NCBI GenBank assembly: GCA_938035945.1
Contig: CALHOU010000090.1
Span: 1 to 64,000, forward strand
Reading direction: 5' to 3'
DNA length: 64,000 bases
From: an uncultured Granulosicoccaceae bacterium
Lineage (GTDB): Bacteria; Pseudomonadota; Gammaproteobacteria; Granulosicoccales; Granulosicoccaceae
Every line of letters starts with the position of its first letter. Within the stretch, counting starts at the first letter, position 1. Shown piece after piece: positions 8,644-17,045 of this stretch. The position numbers were made by a program, and so were the translations under genes. The notes beneath the pieces are model-generated. The model made no database searches. It worked only from the letters and a program-made list of their open reading frames with translations, and was not told the DNA's origin.

Positions 8644-10509
8644 TTAGTCTTCGGCGAACAACTCTACCAGCTGTCGCGTCATCACGTCAGCTAATTGCGA
8701 TACGTCATGAATAGTGGTCGCGCGTCGATAATATTTACTCACATCGTGGGCTATGCCGATGGCCACCAACTCGACTTCGTCTTGTCGCTCAATGGTGCCC
8801 ACTACATGCCGTAGGTGCTTTTCTAGAAAGCGCCCTGGGTTTGTTGACAAAGTGGAGTCATCGATTGGCGCACCATCAGAGATCATCATTAGAATTTTAC
8901 GATGCTCTGTGCGTTGCAGCAGCCGGCCATAAGCCCATTGCAAGGCCTCGCCATCGATATTTTCTTTCAATAAACCCTTACGCATCATCAAACCTAAGCT
9001 GCGCTTGGATTGACGGTATGGCATGTCGGCCGACTTATAAATAATATGACGTAAATCGTTTAGCCTGCCCGGATTTGCAGGATACCCAGCCTCGACCCAC
9101 CGCTCGCGTGATTTACCACCCTTCCAGGCCACCGTGGTAAAGCCAAGCACCTCTACTTTCACACCGCAACGCTCAAGCGTTGAAGCCAGGATATCGGCCG
9201 ATACGGCAGCCACTCGAATTGAGCGACCATGCATTGAACCGGAATTATCCAGCAACAAGGTCACAACCGTGTCACGAAAATCCGTGTCACGCTCTTGCTT
9301 AAAGGTGAGTGGTGCCAGTGGCTCGGTTAGCACACGAGTTAAACGCGAACAATCAAGCTGACCTTCGTCTTGATCAAAATCCCAACTGCGTTGCTGTTGC
9401 GCGAGCAACACCCTTTGCAGGCGATTGGCAAACCGCCCGACCAGTTTTTGCAAATCACCTAAATGTTGATCAAGCTGTTCGCGCAAACGAATCAATTCTT
9501 CTGTGGCGCAAATATCGGCGGGCCGAACCACTTCGTCATAGTCGGTGCTGTACACGTGATAATCGTTTTTCTCACGCTCTTTTAGCTCTAATTCTTTTAG
9601 ACGACGCTGCGCGCCCGGATTTTCAGATTGATCATCGGATACTTCATCAGGCTCTGCCGCATCGCCCGTGTCTTCTGCCTCACCCTGCTGTTCTTCGCCA
9701 CTATCAGACTCGTTGGCGTCATCCATGCCCATGTCGGTGTCGTCTGATTCATTCGATGGGTCTTGATCAACGGTTTCTTTTTCATCGGCATCATCGCCAA
9801 TCTCATCTTCTGAGTCGGGGTTTTCGCTATCGCCATGTTCGATTTTTAGGCTGCGCAATAGTTCGCTAAAAGCGCGCGCATAGTCCGCTTGCTGATCAAG
9901 TGTGAAGTTATTTTCTTCAAATGCCGGGTCTACATTCTCACCTAACCATTCACGCCAACCGTCCAAAGCATCCGATGCGGCCTGAGGCAACTCACCCCCT
10001 AGGCGCTCACGTACATACAGAGACAACGCATGTTCTATCCCGACGCGGTTCGAATCAGCATCAATTGCATTACTGTGTTTATGCTGAAGCGCATCGTTTA
10101 TGGCGCGGTAACGTTGATCAAGCGCGGCATTTAAATTGTCGGCAACGCCGTCGTACTGTTTTGCACCTAGCAATTCGATTCGTGTTTGTTCGGCCAACGC
10201 AAAACAGCGCTGAGACGTGTCGGTCTTGGGTTGCACGCGTTGGTGCAATTTAGAATCGTGAAACTGACGATGCAATGCCAAAGCATCACTTCTGCCTCGG
10301 GTTTCATTGCGTTGTTGTTCACTGGCATTTATTGGGAACGCTGGCATGGTTGCGGCGTTCAGATCAACATCTTCAGCCTGTTCATCAAACTCAATGTTAA
10401 TGCTAGGGTCGCTAGCGATCGCACGCGCACACGCTGTGGTCGACTGTTTAAAATCAGTCGCACCGCGTTCCGCATTCCGTGCAGGTTGATTCGAATTACT
10501 AGCCGGCAT
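8644..10509 (-). CDS. cobT: CobT-type cobaltochelatase subunit (VWA protein)
   Basis: 621 residues from the ATG at 10509, which overlaps the end of cobS by 11 bases; a longer frame to 10581 would run deep into cobS. The architecture is that of CobT: an alpha-helical N-terminus, a very acidic Asp/Glu linker (about 226-298), and a C-terminal von Willebrand A domain whose metal-ion site DNSGSM is at about 421-426, with a later '[12 protein letters not shown]' strand. In aerobic cobalamin synthesis, CobT, CobS and CobN together insert cobalt into hydrogenobyrinate diamide with ATP. Neither CobN nor other cobalamin genes are present in the window, so the pair could instead act as a MoxR-VWA-type chaperone, possibly for the adjacent divergent DNA-processing genes. 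Confidence 0.88.
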
Positions 10510-11485
10510 CTGCCTGCGGTAGCTCTTCACCGAACACGCGCTGATACAGTTCAGCGATAAGCGCCCGCTCCGCTGGGTCACACTTATTCAGGAACACTAA
10601 TTCAAACGCCAAGGTGGGTTCTTTAAAGAAGGTGAGGTTTTGTGTCCATGTGATAACCGTGCGTGGGCTCATCACGGTGGCAAGGTCACCATTTTTAAAT
10701 GCATTACGGGTTAAGTTGGCCAAGGCCACCATGTTCTTAACCAGACGTTCGCCTTCTGCATTTTGTAAGTGCGGTGCTTTAGCCAGCACTACACGCTCTT
10801 CAAGCTCTGCTGGTAAATAGTTTAGAACCGTGGTGATATTCCAACGATCCATTTGCGCTTGGTTGATTTGCTGCGTGCCATGGTACAAGCCTGTGGTGTC
10901 GCCCAAACCGACCGTGTTCGCTGTGGCGAAAAAGCGGAATGCTGGGTGTGGTGATAACACGCGGCTTTGATCAAGCAGCGTAAGCTTACCGGTGGATTCG
11001 AGTACTCGTTGAATAACAAACATAACATCGGGCCGGCCAGCATCGTACTCATCAAATACCAAAGCAACGTTGCGCTGATAAGCCCATGGCAAAATCCCAT
11101 CCTGGAATTCGGTTACTTGCTTACCGTCTTGCAGAACAATCGCATCTTTACCGATCAAGTCTATACGACTAACGTGGCTATCTAAGTTGATGCGCAAGCA
11201 CGGCCAATTTAAACGCGCCGCTACCTGCTCAACGTGCGTCGATTTGCCGGTGCCGTGGTAGCCACTGATTAGTACACGCCAGTCATTGGCGAATCCTGAC
11301 AAAATCGCAAGCGTTGTGCGTTTGTCGAAAATGTAGGTTGGGTCTAGTTCTGGCACACGCTCGCTGCGCTCACTGTAAGCGGGTACGGTGATGTCCACAT
11401 CAATACCAAATACCTCTGAAACAGAGACGGTCGTATCTGGCATTGGGCTTAACGATGCAGCGCTATTTTGGTTCGACTCCAGCAT
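10499..11485 (-). CDS. cobS: CobS-type cobaltochelatase subunit (AAA+ ATPase)
   Basis: A 328-residue AAA+ ATPase of the CobS/MoxR group. The N-terminal '[18 protein letters not shown]' is the CobS recognition segment. Walker A is GYHGTGKST (75-83), Walker B is LVFDEYDAG (142-150), and the sensor region '[19 protein letters not shown]' follows. Length and motifs match alphaproteobacterial CobS closely. With CobT it forms the ATPase ring that drives CobN. It is the first gene of a cobS-cobT operon whose promoter lies in the 169-base divergent region 11486-11654. Without CobN here, true chelatase function cannot be confirmed from this window. Confidence 0.9.
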
Positions 11486-11654
11486 GGAATGTAAGGCTCT
11501 TTATCCGGCTTAAAACCCCATCCTACACGCAGCGGCGAGCGCTGTGGTTGATCACGTGCAAAACAGGTCGAAAAATGTGAAGTTCACAATTCGCGCAGAC
11601 AATTCAGGTGCGATTAAGTAGCCCTGCTCGCAGCTCTCACATACACTAAGGCTC
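11486..11654. promoter_or_regulatory. Divergent promoter region, cobS versus primase-polymerase gene, with palindrome
   Basis: This 169-base gap must hold both promoters. It contains a perfect interrupted palindrome, TGTGAAGTTCACA, at 11576-11588, and the smaller palindromes TGATCA and CACGTG nearby (about 11549-11558). TACACT at 11642-11647 is a possible -10 element very close to the plus-strand start. The palindrome is a candidate operator for shared control. It is not a CRP site, because its half-sites are only three bases apart. Confidence 0.45.
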
Positions 11655-12899
11655 ATGGCCAGCACACACGAAATTATTGGCGAGGAATGGCGCGAACGAG
11701 CAACCGAACTTGCCGATTGGGCAGCACTTCGCCTGGTTAATCGTAAAGATGTCTGGGGGCAATACTCGGTTCCCACCCCAACCGAACGACGAGAAACCGG
11801 CAGAACCTACAAAGCCATGACGCTACCCGCCAAGGCCCAGCGCGGGGGCGACAAGGTCACCTTGGATAAACTGACTCGACACTTCGCCAGCCGCCGGTTA
11901 CGCAAACCACAATTGATTGGCCTGCACGCCAAATCAAAACAAACCACCAGTCGCTGGTTTGGATTGGATATCGATTGCCACGACCCCGACGCCCCAGAAG
12001 CCCAAGACCTGGCTCGACGAAACCTCAATGCCTGCGTGACCTGGTATCGCAAACTACAAGACATGGGGCACGACCCAATTTTGTTTGATTCCAATGGTGC
12101 CGGTGGTTTTCACATCTGGGTTTTGTTTGCCGAGCCTGCACCCACGGCTCAGGTGTTCAATTTCGCGCAATGGGTGGTTTCTGATTGGGAAAAACTGCAG
12201 CTCGAAAAATTACCAGAAACGTTTCCTAAAACCGTTAAAGATGGAAGCTTAGGCTCATGGTTCAGATTGCCAGGACTGCACCACACGCGCGATCACTATG
12301 CGGCCGTTTGGGCTGGTGATGATGGTTTGGATGACCCTTGGTTGACCGGACACGCCGCCATTGATGTGATGTTAGCCAATGTGCCTGGCCCGCCGCCCGT
12401 GATACCGGGTGAGCAAAACAATACAGCGCTAAAAAAATCAACAGTGAACAAACCCAAAGACGCCGAACCGGGTAATTCGCCGCCACCGAAAAGTGATCGC
12501 AGCTTTGCACGAAATCAAAAACCGCGAATATGCGTTGATTTAGATGGTGTATTGGCCGCTCGGGTAGAAGGCAGTGCCATCGGCCCACCGATAGACGGCG
12601 CTGTTGAATTTACCCGCAACATCGCCTCCCGCGCAGAGATCATTATTTTTACCGCACGTTTTTCAACGCGCAGCGCTAAACCCAGGAGCGAAAAATCAAC
12701 CAAGGAACTGGAAGCGCGAATTAAAAAATGGCTCGATGCACATGGCTTTAGCTACGACTCTATTAACACCACGCAGGCCAAACCCATAGCTTCGGCCTAT
12801 GTCGATGACCGAGCGATCAGCTGCCAACCCTTAAAGATGGGTATGCAAGCGTTCGACACCGCTTTGAATAGCATCGACGCTTTGTGTCATATTAAATAA
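11655..12899 (+). CDS. Primase-polymerase (AEP superfamily) fused to a HAD phosphatase
   Basis: A 414-residue two-domain protein. Residues about 85-235 look like an archaeo-eukaryotic primase/PrimPol catalytic core: the metal motif DIDCHD (105-110), then the SNGAGGFHIW motif (146-155) resembling the usual 'sGxGxHxW', then RLPGLHH (204-210). A Pro/Lys-rich linker (245-288) follows. Residues 290-400 are a HAD phosphatase: VDLDGV (294-299, nucleophile and acid Asp), FTAR (332-335, motif II), KP (376-377) and YVDDRA (382-387, motif IV). The predicted roles are nucleotide addition or priming, and removal of phosphates, possibly from DNA ends. It heads a plus-strand run of DNA-processing genes and diverges from cobS. 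Both domain calls come from motif reading. Confidence 0.75.
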   Translation: MASTHEIIGEEWRERATELADWAALRLVNRKDVWGQYSVPTPTERRETGRTYKAMTLPAKAQRGGDKVTLDKLTRHFASRRLRKPQLIGLHAKSKQTTSRWFGLDIDCHDPDAPEAQDLARRNLNACVTWYRKLQDMGHDPILFDSNGAGGFHIWVLFAEPAPTAQVFNFAQWVVSDWEKLQLEKLPETFPKTVKDGSLGSWFRLPGLHHTRDHYAAVWAGDDGLDDPWLTGHAAIDVMLANVPGPPPVIPGEQNNTALKKSTVNKPKDAEPGNSPPPKSDRSFARNQKPRICVDLDGVLAARVEGSAIGPPIDGAVEFTRNIASRAEIIIFTARFSTRSAKPRSEKSTKELEARIKKWLDAHGFSYDSINTTQAKPIASAYVDDRAISCQPLKMGMQAFDTALNSIDALCHIK

Positions 12900-12934
12900 G
12901 TATTTAACGTCCCACAAAACTATCAACTAACGCC

Positions 12935-13561
12935 ATGGCCCGCTCACTGTCATTCTCGATTAAGAACACTGAATTTGATGCAGAAATTATCAAAGTTGAT
13001 CGTTCTCATCTCTACGGTACGGTCAGTATTGAAACCGCTGATATGAACGGTGCGCGCTGCGCTGTGGCCACGCTCGCGGTGGACGGTAAAACGCTAATAC
13101 CTAAAGGCGGGACTGCCTTGGGCTATATAAACCCCGACGGTGAATGGGTTAGCCGCGATGAATTGCAACCGGTCGATCTGGATGGTGAGCCGGTCGAGGA
13201 AGTTGAATCAAGCTTCGACGCACCGATCGTGTTAGATAAAAAATGCGACGCTGAAGAATTTTTAAACCATAGCGTACGATTGGTTTATCGACTGGATGCC
13301 GAAGCGTTTCCAGCAGAACTTATGAGTGAATTAAAAGCCGGCACTCTTTTCCAATTCGGCTTTAGCTATCGTGGCGGCGTGGGCTACGACCCAGCCTTTA
13401 TACTCGGCGATGAAGATGACAATGTGTGGATGATGGTTACACGCGAAAACCGCGTTGAGTCGGTTGGCTTAGCACAAGCAGCCGTTTGTTACGGTGAAAA
13501 CCTGGATGAGGACACTGATGATGAAGACACCAGTGATAGCATCGACTTCAGCATGTTGTAG
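12935..13561 (+). CDS. Uncharacterised acidic protein of the PrimPol-ligase locus
   Basis: 208 residues that I do not recognise. It starts 35 bases after the PrimPol-HAD gene and ends eight bases before the next gene, so it is probably co-transcribed. There is no signal peptide or membrane segment. The body looks beta-rich, with several 'V.LDG..' strands and a 'GFSYRGGVGYDPAFILGDEDDNVW' region (about 148-171), and the C-terminal tail (about 188-204) is strongly acidic (EDTDDEDTSD). The tail could be a DNA mimic or a protein-docking segment. Its role in the locus is unknown. Confidence 0.6.
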   Translation: MARSLSFSIKNTEFDAEIIKVDRSHLYGTVSIETADMNGARCAVATLAVDGKTLIPKGGTALGYINPDGEWVSRDELQPVDLDGEPVEEVESSFDAPIVLDKKCDAEEFLNHSVRLVYRLDAEAFPAELMSELKAGTLFQFGFSYRGGVGYDPAFILGDEDDNVWMMVTRENRVESVGLAQAAVCYGENLDEDTDDEDTSDSIDFSML

Positions 13562-13569
13562 GAAACACT

Positions 13570-14280
13570 ATGCCAAATATTAATCTGTCAGATAAACGTA
13601 ATCGCGACGCTGTCGTCAAGGCTGAAAGTATTGGCGTTGATGAACCAATACGTTATCTCGGACCTAAAGGCGGTCAAACGTATACACGCCGCGTTTTAAA
13701 GTCGACTACAGCACACGACTACGAAACTTTATTTGAAGCACACGGTGACGCGGAAAATATTTCCCAAGCACTGATCAATGGTGACCCAGAAGTTGACATC
13801 GAACGCTTCGGGCAATTTTTATGGAACACCAGCAAAGTTTACATAACGCCCGATGAAGAACTCGTGTTTCGTGTACAACAAACCGAAGTGGTGCGCGACA
13901 CAACCGGTAAACTCATCACTAAACGCAATCGCGAAAGTGAAGAGCCGAATGTGGATGCCGATATTCCGCTGCGCTGGACGGGTAAATTAATTCCTAAAGC
14001 GCAAGCTATTCGCAAATTCGTGTTTACCGCCAAATTGCAGGTCGTGCACATCAACGGTCTGACTTATGACTTCCTGTATGCCATGGCAGAGGAGCTTGCC
14101 AAGGAAAAAAGCCTGATGCTGCTAGGCGCTGGCGAGGATGGCAAACAACCCTTGATATTTCGCCGCGGCTCGATTCCCTATCGGGCATTTCTAGAGGGCC
14201 GCGTGGTTGATAAACGCTACACACTACTATTGCATTTGAGCAATATGGAGTTAAAAAGACGAGTTTCGAACCGCGAATAA
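13570..14280 (+). CDS. Uncharacterised protein of the PrimPol-ligase locus
   Basis: 236 residues with no family I can name. An N-terminal 'IRYLGPKGGQTYTRR' block (about 27-41) is basic and Gly-rich. The middle has alternating charged helices. The C-terminal half ('RKFVFTAKLQVVHINGLTYDFLYAMAEEL', about 147-175, then 'IFRRGSIPYRAFLEGR') has alternating strands and helices, suggesting a compact soluble domain. It follows the previous gene after eight bases. It may be a nucleic-acid-binding partner of the PrimPol or ligase, but that rests only on position. An opposite-strand hemJ separates it from the ligase gene. Confidence 0.6.
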   Translation: MPNINLSDKRNRDAVVKAESIGVDEPIRYLGPKGGQTYTRRVLKSTTAHDYETLFEAHGDAENISQALINGDPEVDIERFGQFLWNTSKVYITPDEELVFRVQQTEVVRDTTGKLITKRNRESEEPNVDADIPLRWTGKLIPKAQAIRKFVFTAKLQVVHINGLTYDFLYAMAEELAKEKSLMLLGAGEDGKQPLIFRRGSIPYRAFLEGRVVDKRYTLLLHLSNMELKRRVSNRE

Positions 14281-14343
14281 AGCCATCCTGGACCTGCCAT
14301 CTTGAACCTGCCTTCTTGAACCTGATAGCCAAGTGGGCCAGTA

Positions 14344-14775
14344 TTAAAACGGTCTAACCACCACTAATATCACGATAAGAATTAATGCAATAAACGGCAA
14401 TTCATTTGCAAGCTTTAATTGCTTTGGTGTGATGGTCGCCTCACCGGCATCGATTGCTTTGCCCGTTTTGATGTAAAACCCGTGCAGCCCCGATACACAC
14501 ACCACCAAAAATAGCTTTGCCCAAATCCAACCGAACTGAAACACGGCAGGATTCTTCGCCAACAAGCCAATACCTAATACCCAAACCACAATCATGCTTG
14601 GCGTCATAATGATGCGGCGCAGCCGTGCTGAAGCATCGCTCATGGTGTCGAATAGCTCGCTACCCTTAGTCGCTGAGAGCTGATGGATTTTGTATCGCGG
14701 ATACACCAACAGCCCAGCCATCCATGCGACCACAAATATAATGTGCGCAGCTTTTAACCAAAGATACACGTTCAT
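14344..14775 (-). CDS. hemJ: Protoporphyrinogen IX oxidase HemJ
   Basis: A 143-residue membrane protein with four hydrophobic segments, the normal size of HemJ (UPF0093). It opens with the family signature 'LWLKAAHIIFVVAWMAGLL' (residues 5-23, including a conserved His) followed by YPRYKIH. HemJ oxidises protoporphyrinogen IX to protoporphyrin IX in haem synthesis, using the respiratory chain as electron sink. It is the only gene of the 11.7-17.0 kb stretch on the minus strand and splits the DNA-processing locus. No other haem genes are near. Confidence 0.88.
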   Translation of the reverse strand: MNVYLWLKAAHIIFVVAWMAGLLVYPRYKIHQLSATKGSELFDTMSDASARLRRIIMTPSMIVVWVLGIGLLAKNPAVFQFGWIWAKLFLVVCVSGLHGFYIKTGKAIDAGEATITPKQLKLANELPFIALILIVILVVVRPF

Positions 14776-14867
14776 AGCGCTTCGCCTTATTCATTAACAG
14801 ACAGTATTCACAGCCAGATAGTACACTGTTCGTATTAATTTAGAGCAGCCAACACGGCCTAGACCCT

Positions 14868-16331
14868 ATGCCATTACTGTCCAAACCGCTGACCCAAAAA
14901 ATCGGAGACTACGGCACCGGCAAAGCTGCAGAGTCACTGGCTGACCCTGCCAAACTACAAGCAACCCGCATGCGCAGGCGCCAGCTCAGCCGCATGACCA
15001 AAGCCTACGACCGCCCTACCGCAAAGGCCCGACTCCCTGAAACCGACTACGCGATCAGCCGTAAAGTTGACGGCGAATTTACCGTGTTGTTTTTCAGCGA
15101 GGGCGATGTCATCACATTAAACCCCGGTGGCACCTTGCGCGCAGGTGCGGCGTTTCATAAGGAGGCCGCGCAGCGTTTAGCCGATGCCGGAATCAAAGAA
15201 GCCATGCTCGGCGGCGAACTGCATGTCCGACATCAAGACGGCAGGCGCGAACGTGTGCACGATGTGGTGCAAGTAGCTCGCTCACCCGACAACCAGGAAG
15301 CTGTCGATAGTTTATGTTTCGCGGTTTTCAATATCTATGACATTGATGGTACCGACCTCTCCATGCACTACGACCAGGCCATGAGTCAGGCCAAAGCCCT
15401 GTTTGGTGAAGGCGACCGAATTTTTCCTGTTGAAATGCACGTTGGCAATCGCGACAAAGCGTTAGAGCTGTTTGATCAGTGGGTAGAACAAGAAGGTTCG
15501 GAAGGCATCGTCTTACGCAGTGATAGCGCTGGCATTTTTAAAGTGAAGCCTCGTCACTCCATTGATCTTGCGATCCTCGGGTATTCCGAAGGTGTGGATG
15601 ATCGGGCTGGCATGCTGCACAGTATGCTTATTGGTGTGGTGCGCGATGATCAACACGCACACATTGTTGGCCGCGTCGGTGGCGGTTATTCAGATGAGCA
15701 ACGCATCAGTCTCTTAAAGCAATTGCGCGAGCTGGATGTTGAAAGTGACTATGCCGAAGTCAACTCCGATCGCGTCGCCTACCGCATGATCAAACCGGGA
15801 CTTGTCGCTGAAATTTCCTGCCTTGATGTTATCGCCACCACTTCTCACGGTAGTCCGATTGATCGCATGGTGGTTGAGTGGAACGAAGAGGGTAGTGCTT
15901 GGCGAGGCGTGCGACGCTTACCGCTATGCAGTATTATTTCGCCGCAGTTTGTTCGCCTGCGCGAGGATAAAGCATTCAGCGCCGTTGATGTAGGGTTGGA
16001 GCAACTGGTTGATATTGTGAACATCCCAACCAGTGAACACGGCAAACTCGATGCATTAAATTTACCTCAGAGTACGATCTTGGAGCGCTCTGTGGCGACC
16101 AAAACGCTCAAAGGCGCCACCATGGTACGCAAGCTTCTATTGTGGCAAACCAATAAGGCCGAGGCATCCCGCGATTTCCCGGGCTATGTGTTGCACCTAA
16201 CCGACTACAGCCCAAATCGTAAAGAACCACTCAATCACGAGATATGCGTAAGCGACTCCGAAGAACAAATTCGCCAGCTATTTGTCGACTGGAAGACACA
16301 GTATTACAAGCGTGGCTGGGAAGAGATGTAA
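14868..16331 (+). CDS. ATP-dependent DNA ligase
   Basis: A 487-residue ATP-dependent polynucleotide ligase. Motif I is SRKVDGE (64-70) with nucleotidyl-accepting Lys66. GGELHV (115-120) supplies the motif Ia/II-like Glu, FAVFNIYDIDG (151-161) is motif III, EGIVLR (212-217) is motif IV and FKVKP (224-228) is motif V. The C-terminal half includes an OB-fold-like region ('IVGRVGGGYSDEQ'). No LigD-type polymerase or phosphoesterase domain is fused, and no Ku gene is nearby. Its stop is six bases before the EEP-enzyme gene, so the two are surely co-transcribed. The expected role is sealing nicks or breaks after processing by the locus partners. Confidence 0.85.
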   Translation: MPLLSKPLTQKIGDYGTGKAAESLADPAKLQATRMRRRQLSRMTKAYDRPTAKARLPETDYAISRKVDGEFTVLFFSEGDVITLNPGGTLRAGAAFHKEAAQRLADAGIKEAMLGGELHVRHQDGRRERVHDVVQVARSPDNQEAVDSLCFAVFNIYDIDGTDLSMHYDQAMSQAKALFGEGDRIFPVEMHVGNRDKALELFDQWVEQEGSEGIVLRSDSAGIFKVKPRHSIDLAILGYSEGVDDRAGMLHSMLIGVVRDDQHAHIVGRVGGGYSDEQRISLLKQLRELDVESDYAEVNSDRVAYRMIKPGLVAEISCLDVIATTSHGSPIDRMVVEWNEEGSAWRGVRRLPLCSIISPQFVRLREDKAFSAVDVGLEQLVDIVNIPTSEHGKLDALNLPQSTILERSVATKTLKGATMVRKLLLWQTNKAEASRDFPGYVLHLTDYSPNRKEPLNHEICVSDSEEQIRQLFVDWKTQYYKRGWEEM

Positions 16332-16337
16332 AAAACC

Positions 16338-17045
16338 ATGCGAATTTTAAGCTGGAATATTTTGCAAGGCGGTGGCAAGCGTAGTCACGACATTGCAGAT
16401 GCCATTCAGGCGTTGCAGCCAGATATCGCAGTGCTACAGGAATTTCGAAACAGCAAGGCAGCGGTACCCATTCTCGATGCCATCAAAGCACTTGGTCTCT
16501 CCCATGTACACAGAGCCTCAAGCGATGCGCGTAAAAACACAGTGATGATGGCCAGTCGTTATCCATTGAGCATTGCACCGGTTGTTACATCACTCGACGA
16601 TGACTTGTTATTTTGTGCACGTATTGAGTATGGGTCAGAACTAAACGATGAGCTCACTGTTTTTGCAGGCCACTTACCGCAAAAGAAAAAACAAATCCCC
16701 TACCTCGATGCCTTATACCAACTCGATGTTAAACAGTTCGACAAAGCCATGATCATTGGTGATATCAATTGCGGAATCCCGTATGAGGATTCGGACACCA
16801 AGAGCTTTGATAACACACATATATTTCAGTCAATTTTGGGCAAAGGCTGGATTGACAGTTGGCGCAGTAGAAATAAGAGCGCGAAAGAATTTAGCTGGGT
16901 AAGCTCACGTGGCAATGGGTATCGTTATGATCATTGTTTGTGTACGCCGCAGTTGGATGATTGCATAGAGTTGGTTACTTATAAACACGCGCTGCGTGGG
17001 CCAGGATTATCGGACCACAGTGCGCTGGTCTTGGATATTAAATAA
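16338..17045 (+). CDS. Endonuclease/exonuclease/phosphatase (EEP) family protein
   Basis: A 235-residue enzyme of the exonuclease III/APE1/DNase I fold. Metal and catalytic motifs are in order: SWNILQ (5-10), LQEF with Glu35, GDIN (141-144) and SDHSA (225-229). Length fits a single EEP domain. Members cleave phosphodiesters in DNA, RNA or lipids; next to a DNA ligase and a PrimPol, a role in trimming damaged DNA ends or abasic sites is the simplest reading. It lies six bases after the ligase gene and is the last gene of the unit, followed by a 14-bp inverted repeat. Confidence 0.82.
   Translation: MRILSWNILQGGGKRSHDIADAIQALQPDIAVLQEFRNSKAAVPILDAIKALGLSHVHRASSDARKNTVMMASRYPLSIAPVVTSLDDDLLFCARIEYGSELNDELTVFAGHLPQKKKQIPYLDALYQLDVKQFDKAMIIGDINCGIPYEDSDTKSFDNTHIFQSILGKGWIDSWRSRNKSAKEFSWVSSRGNGYRYDHCLCTPQLDDCIELVTYKHALRGPGLSDHSALVLDIK

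Follow-up and report, generated by a model that had tools for sequence, protein, structure and literature searches.

Genes of the module

We analysed a stretch of 64,000 nucleotides from an uncultured Granulosicoccaceae bacterium (contig CALHOU010000090.1, positions 1 to 64,000; hereafter the window), which carries a candidate module for DNA end joining. Five intact plus-strand genes, each an uninterrupted open reading frame, span 5.39 kb, in agreement with the five-gene cluster within 5.4 kb described in an earlier note on this DNA. They encode protein A (11655-12899, 414 aa), a fusion of an archaeo-eukaryotic primase (AEP) domain with a haloacid dehalogenase (HAD) domain, here called PrimPol-HAD; proteins B (12935-13561, 208 aa) and C (13570-14280, 236 aa), two predicted Ku-fold subunits; an ATP-dependent DNA ligase (14868-16331, 487 aa); and an endonuclease/exonuclease/phosphatase (EEP) enzyme with the exonuclease III / AP endonuclease fold (16338-17045, 235 aa). 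The gap between B and C is 8 bp and that between C and the ligase gene is 587 bp.

The AEP domain of protein A covers approximately residues 1-245, and the HAD phosphatase domain approximately residues 285-395. AEP-TOTE (PF22548; 5.8e-7, 29.8 bits against a cut-off of 27) was the sole AEP family matched in Pfam at E<=1; this match exceeded the cut-off and classifies the domain only. The AEP domain also matched PDB entries 7nqf and 7nqd (3e-4), which are titled 'TPR_REGION domain-containing protein' and which we take to be a CRISPR-associated PrimPol. The C-terminal HAD domain matched PDB 1xpj (1.7e-8) and phrog_1238 (1.6e-14), with a weak likeness to phage polynucleotide kinase (phrog_415, 1.4e-4). 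Among 12 aligned sequences, D105, D107 and H153 of the AEP part and D295, D297, T333, K376, D384 and D385 of the HAD part are invariant, and these are presumably catalytic positions. No phosphoesterase (PE) domain was found by Pfam or NCBIfam among the five module proteins.

The ligase consists of an adenylation domain (KVDG motif at residue 66) and an OB fold, with a conserved extension of approximately 110 residues at the C-terminus; the KxDG motif, adenylation domain and OB fold by which an ATP-dependent DNA ligase is recognised are present in the ligases of the module, with one exception (locus L147, see below). Its Pfam matches were DNA_ligase_A_C (PF04679, 8.2e-11), RNA_ligase (PF09414, 1.9e-7) and DNA_ligase_A_M (PF01068, 3.8e-6), and the PDB matches listed were DNA ligases, including DNA ligase 1 and 4. 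The score with the NHEJ_ligase_lig model TIGR02779 (1.2e-16, 60.8 bits, cut-off 227.75) indicates by sequence a relative of this non-homologous end joining (NHEJ) equivalog rather than an equivalent of it. Residues K66, D68, G69, E117, K225 and K227, to which we assign catalytic-type roles, are invariant in 26 aligned sequences. A ligase alignment (A10) included 25 of 29 ligases, the others being truncated at a contig end or of uncertain start. The EEP protein matched Exo_endo_phos (PF03372, 9.4e-11), NCBIfam exodeoxyribonuclease III models (about 1e-13) and exodeoxyribonuclease III in the PDB (2.3e-13). Together with N7, E35, D142, N144, D226 and H227, which are invariant in 11 aligned sequences and presumably catalytic, the Pfam match places it in the EEP / exonuclease III family.

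Predicted Ku fold of proteins B and C

Proteins B and C are the two unrecognised proteins that the earlier note had seen embedded in the cluster, and indeed neither matched anything at E<=1 in Pfam, NCBIfam or PADLOC, the Pfam Ku profile PF02735 included. In PHROGs, C had no match and B one weak match (7.7e-3). Their structural models suggest that both are Ku-fold proteins, each with a Ku beta-barrel core. All 50 rows listed by Foldseek for each model were Ku or Ku-containing entries, the confident BFVD matches of B were Ku only, and Ku80-numbered core ranges were among the best structural matches of both models. The VIA-align results are a re-ranking of the Foldseek list and cover the families within that list only. 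Both proteins also have an insertion of approximately 80 residues where Ku has its bridge. The models of this insertion are of low confidence and, in C, contain helices; the bridge of mKu is given as 23-91, with beta-hairpins (PMC12784962).

Homology to Ku was not significant by sequence, either in hhalign profile-profile comparison, including three settings with wider alignments, or in HMM scoring against shuffled and reversed controls, and a PDB sequence search with B and C gave no convincing match. A visual pattern match of B with the Ku bridge was not taken as evidence. B and C are not assignable to PF02735; they are predicted Ku-fold proteins whose function is probably Ku-like. The alignments contained 23 of 28 C relatives (A5) and 21 of 23 sequences including that of locus L002 (A6); those left out were truncated at a contig end or had an uncertain start.

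The C-terminus of B is an acidic tail with a D-F-x-x-hydrophobic tip (D-F at -5/-4 in 30 of 32 sequences). Such a tail resembles peptide tips such as the SSB tail, and we propose that the ligase or PrimPol is docked by it. Lysine-rich tails occur in some of the C proteins and ligases, and one C protein (L036:8370-9926) has a long lysine-rich extension together with a SAM domain (PF00536, 2e-13).

Recurrence of the gene set

Genome contigs were scanned with a two-sequence ligase alignment and two short peptide patterns, and because of these patterns the 29 loci obtained, from 29 genomes, are only a sample and not a census. They belong to Pseudomonadota (13), Planctomycetota (9), Verrucomicrobiota (3), Myxococcota (2) and Acidobacteriota (2). 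C is on the ligase contig in 28 loci, of which three are truncated at a contig end, and on a different contig in the 29th genome (L071). B is on the ligase contig in 22 loci, and genome-wide searches (22 of 23 genomes, with six more at the locus) raised this to 28 of 29 genomes, the search of G751 being negative; at L020 and L035 the flanking DNA is present and B lies elsewhere in the genome. PrimPol-HAD is encoded at 11 of the 29 loci, in pieces at L021. Counting the 16 positives among 22 genomes searched, five at the locus and G775, the genome of L017, whose contig coordinates are the same as those of G244, it is in 22 of 28 genomes, a total that leaves out the genome of L015. It was not found in G751, G755, G756, G761, G762 or G763, which include both Myxococcota, and where found in Planctomycetota and Verrucomicrobiota, it is mostly on a separate contig. 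Closer to the window, a full-length PrimPol-HAD was present in one other of 369 genomes of the class (two further matches were partial) and PrimPol in none of two genomes of the same genus and one of the same family, and the ligase had no other match at E<=1e-10 in a 398-genome sample of the phylum.

A search seeded with C in 392 genomes of the phylum of L025 gave seven positives, two of them already known. The five new stretches have B, C and the ligase in order on one strand (the ligase of L147 is partial), and PrimPol-HAD was not found within these stretches. In all 29 stretches with both genes, B precedes C on the same strand, at a distance of 0-120 bp in 27 of them (exceptions L016 and L022), and in 19 of 34 cases the frames of C and the ligase share 1-8 bases. 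The recurrence of this gene order across phyla is not due to chance, and B and C are the most tightly linked parts of the module. Pairwise distances of B, C and the ligase correlated (r 0.93-0.94; 25-27 loci, leaving out B below 180, C below 200 and ligases below 400 residues), which, as no unrelated control gene was run, indicates shared descent and nothing further. In the ligase tree, the Pseudomonadota formed one fully supported group.

The EEP gene follows the ligase gene in 11 of the 29 loci, all from Pseudomonadota, and with a copy elsewhere in the genome of L022 it is present in 12 of the 13 Pseudomonadota genomes; the 13th, G775, gave a weak match only (5.2e-6). The 16 genomes from other phyla gave two weak matches (9.7e-7 and 6.5e-6) and no close relative, and we therefore rejected EEP as a core part there; it is an accessory of the Pseudomonadota version. 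The check by conserved co-occurrence that the earlier note proposed came out in favour of a system.

Several loci depart from the common layout. At L010, C is separated from the ligase by about 7 kb of other genes (L010:3103-10000), and the gene clusters of this insert stand upstream of hemJ-ligase at L008. A secreted-looking gene follows B and another precedes C, both leaving the contig end (L002:3589-4203; L005:1-459, G244); by eye, these are possibly a single large gene between B and C. PrimPol and C are split into several frames in a planctomycete metagenome-assembled genome (L021:6977-9949), either by decay or by sequencing indels. At L147:8024-8740 (G919), only the C-terminal approximately 238 residues of the ligase, without the adenylation domain, adjoin B and C, and an NAD-dependent-ligase-like gene is nearby (10335-12410); either this copy is decaying or the ligase C-terminus serves a separate role. 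In the planctomycete G920 (L145:2404-5535), the ligase forms one protein with approximately 300 residues of unknown nature and an AAA ATPase (PF00004, 4.3e-40), and type I restriction genes (ResIII/EcoEI_R_C and N6 methylase) come next.

Canonical Ku, as judged by PF02735, had no match in the genome of the window (86% complete) and was present in 43 of 249 sampled genomes of its phylum. Among the 29 module genomes, only G762 had both the module and canonical Ku (L063, G762:C75:11500-12036), against three to five genomes expected, which fits replacement weakly. In the phylum of L025, 46 of 392 genomes had PF02735, and none of the seven C-positive genomes was among them.

Neighbouring genes and genomic context

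The genes for CobS (10499-11485) and CobT (8644-10581), both on the minus strand, are divergent from the PrimPol gene, as the earlier note had it, and separated from it by 169 bp. Their NCBIfam scores were strong, both slightly below the cut-offs (556.2 bits against 558.55 for CobS; 679.3 bits against 759.05 for CobT). The CobST pair, to which the note ascribes a shared promoter region, adjoins the module in Granulosicoccaceae loci only, and we rejected it as a component. HemJ (UPF0093; 14344-14775, minus strand), encoded between C and the ligase, was rejected likewise, being beside the module only in the window, L008, L009 and L010. The G+C contents of the five genes (0.456-0.528) are similar to that of the window (0.484), and a scan for promoters and terminators gave sites no commoner than in shuffled sequences.

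We scanned viral contigs with A, C and the ligase, using two to six short peptide patterns each; these short patterns reach close relatives only, and within that reach no relative was found beyond HAD-domain matches. A tblastn search of phage and plasmid records with A and C likewise gave HAD-domain matches only, and phage or plasmid cargo was rejected on these results. In PADLOC, A gave weak PrimPol/RT matches (5.9e-4 to 2.3e-2), and the ligase and EEP, like B and C, had no match at E<=1. Among the flanking genes (77 of 191 listed proteins, the nearest ones, hand-picked, with no background rate), members of any one PADLOC family numbered at most two (first 25 of 102 families) and those of any one Pfam family at most three (first 25 of 93); these Pfam families were mixed, comprising metabolic, kinase, helicase and restriction families and DUFs of planctomycetes.

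Proposed mechanism and alternatives

We consider it likely that the module is a bacterial NHEJ pathway in which Ku is divergent and made of two subunits. B and C, which consist of one Ku-core domain each, would together form a ring and thread it over the ends of broken double-stranded DNA. The ligase, whose translation is often coupled to that of C, and PrimPol-HAD would be recruited, possibly via the acidic tail of B. The HAD domain, as a 3'-phosphatase, would restore the 3'-OH, in Pseudomonadota with the help of EEP (AP-endonuclease or 3'-end cleaning), the AEP domain would fill gaps or add a few nucleotides, and the ligase would seal the ends last. The earlier note's comparison of this set, in separate proteins, with bacterial end joining is borne out by the domains and their co-occurrence. 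Its statement that the set works without Ku is right at the level of the profile and probably not at that of the fold, and the Ku-independent repair that it envisaged is probably wrong, given the predicted fold of the two unknowns.

B and C might instead share only the barrel common to Ku, SPOC and INTS13/14 and serve, with no end-threading ring, as scaffold or peptide-binding subunits in a complex that forms around the ligase for single-strand or base-excision repair. We regard this as unlikely, because the structural matches listed above are to Ku and because the insertion at the bridge place is in both proteins. Plain SPOC domains are not known to have such an insertion, and the SPOC chains among our matches are shorter (123-148 residues), consistent with its absence. 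The lack of a close relative of EEP in the 16 non-Pseudomonadota genomes searched also speaks against this reading. RNA repair, in which the ligase would seal RNA after HAD and EEP had healed the ends, is very improbable: RNA_ligase scores slightly above DNA_ligase_A_M and there is the weak likeness of the HAD domain to phage polynucleotide kinase, but the ligase matches DNA_ligase_A_C as well, the PDB entries listed for it are DNA ligases, and its partners are a primase-polymerase and Ku-fold proteins.

The earlier note had also raised a phage- or plasmid-response module, and the match above cut-off to PF22548 ('TOTE conflict system') suggests the same idea, namely a conflict system whose AEP-TOTE-type set processes foreign DNA. 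The distribution is patchy, with PrimPol absent even from the two same-genus genomes, and one planctomycete copy, that with the ligase-AAA fusion, is beside type I restriction genes. However, PADLOC recognised at most protein A, weakly, the flanks examined share no defence family, the G+C content of the module is like its surroundings, and the searches of mobile records showed no defence link. We thus find this proposal unsupported and quite improbable. Returning to end joining with a two-subunit Ku, we lean towards the wider view that at least five phyla hold a second Ku lineage, unrecognisable by sequence, in which B and C form an obligate heterodimer with its own ligase and PrimPol-phosphatase, parallel to Ku-LigD, the ring having arisen independently of Ku70/80 or by an early split of Ku.

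Comparison with known systems

The module was not found in the published literature searched (open-licence PMC papers, preprints not being covered). Since B and C escape the Pfam Ku profile, genomes that it scores as 'Ku-negative' may hold an end-joining pathway in full. A survey of Ku evolution from 2025 covered 122 bacterial species with a Mycobacterium Ku as the start (PMC11936186). A bacterial heterodimeric Ku, if true, would be a small and tractable counterpart of Ku70/80 and would bear on the origin of two-subunit Ku. The alternative end-processing parts (HAD phosphatase, EEP and AEP-TOTE-type polymerase) would inform which activities end joining needs, and the module is possibly useful for genome-engineering tools.

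With a predicted Ku-fold protein, an AEP polymerase, a phosphatase-type domain and an ATP-dependent ligase, the module resembles bacterial and archaeal (AP-)NHEJ, for which separate but operonic Pol, Lig and PE with a homodimeric Ku are known (PMC4797286). It differs in having two distinct predicted Ku-fold subunits whose sequences show no detectable similarity to canonical Ku, a polymerase that matches AEP-TOTE with HAD fused in place of the PE domain, a ligase that has its own C-terminal extension and scores far below the cut-off of the NHEJ model, and EEP as an accessory. The AEP domain of A is related by sequence to the PF22548 AEPs and to 7nqd/7nqf, whereas A is fused to HAD and associated with B, C and the ligase. 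Rhizobia and Streptomyces also have more than one Ku protein per genome, and heterodimers of these paralogues have been speculated upon (PMC5124664); theirs are recognisable Ku-domain paralogues, unlike B and C, which are moreover encoded next to each other in nearly all stretches. The two different Ku-core subunits predicted here are reminiscent of eukaryotic Ku70/80, although B and C would be bare cores of approximately 190-330 residues, too small for the vWA domain of Ku70/80, that pair, as we infer, with each other.
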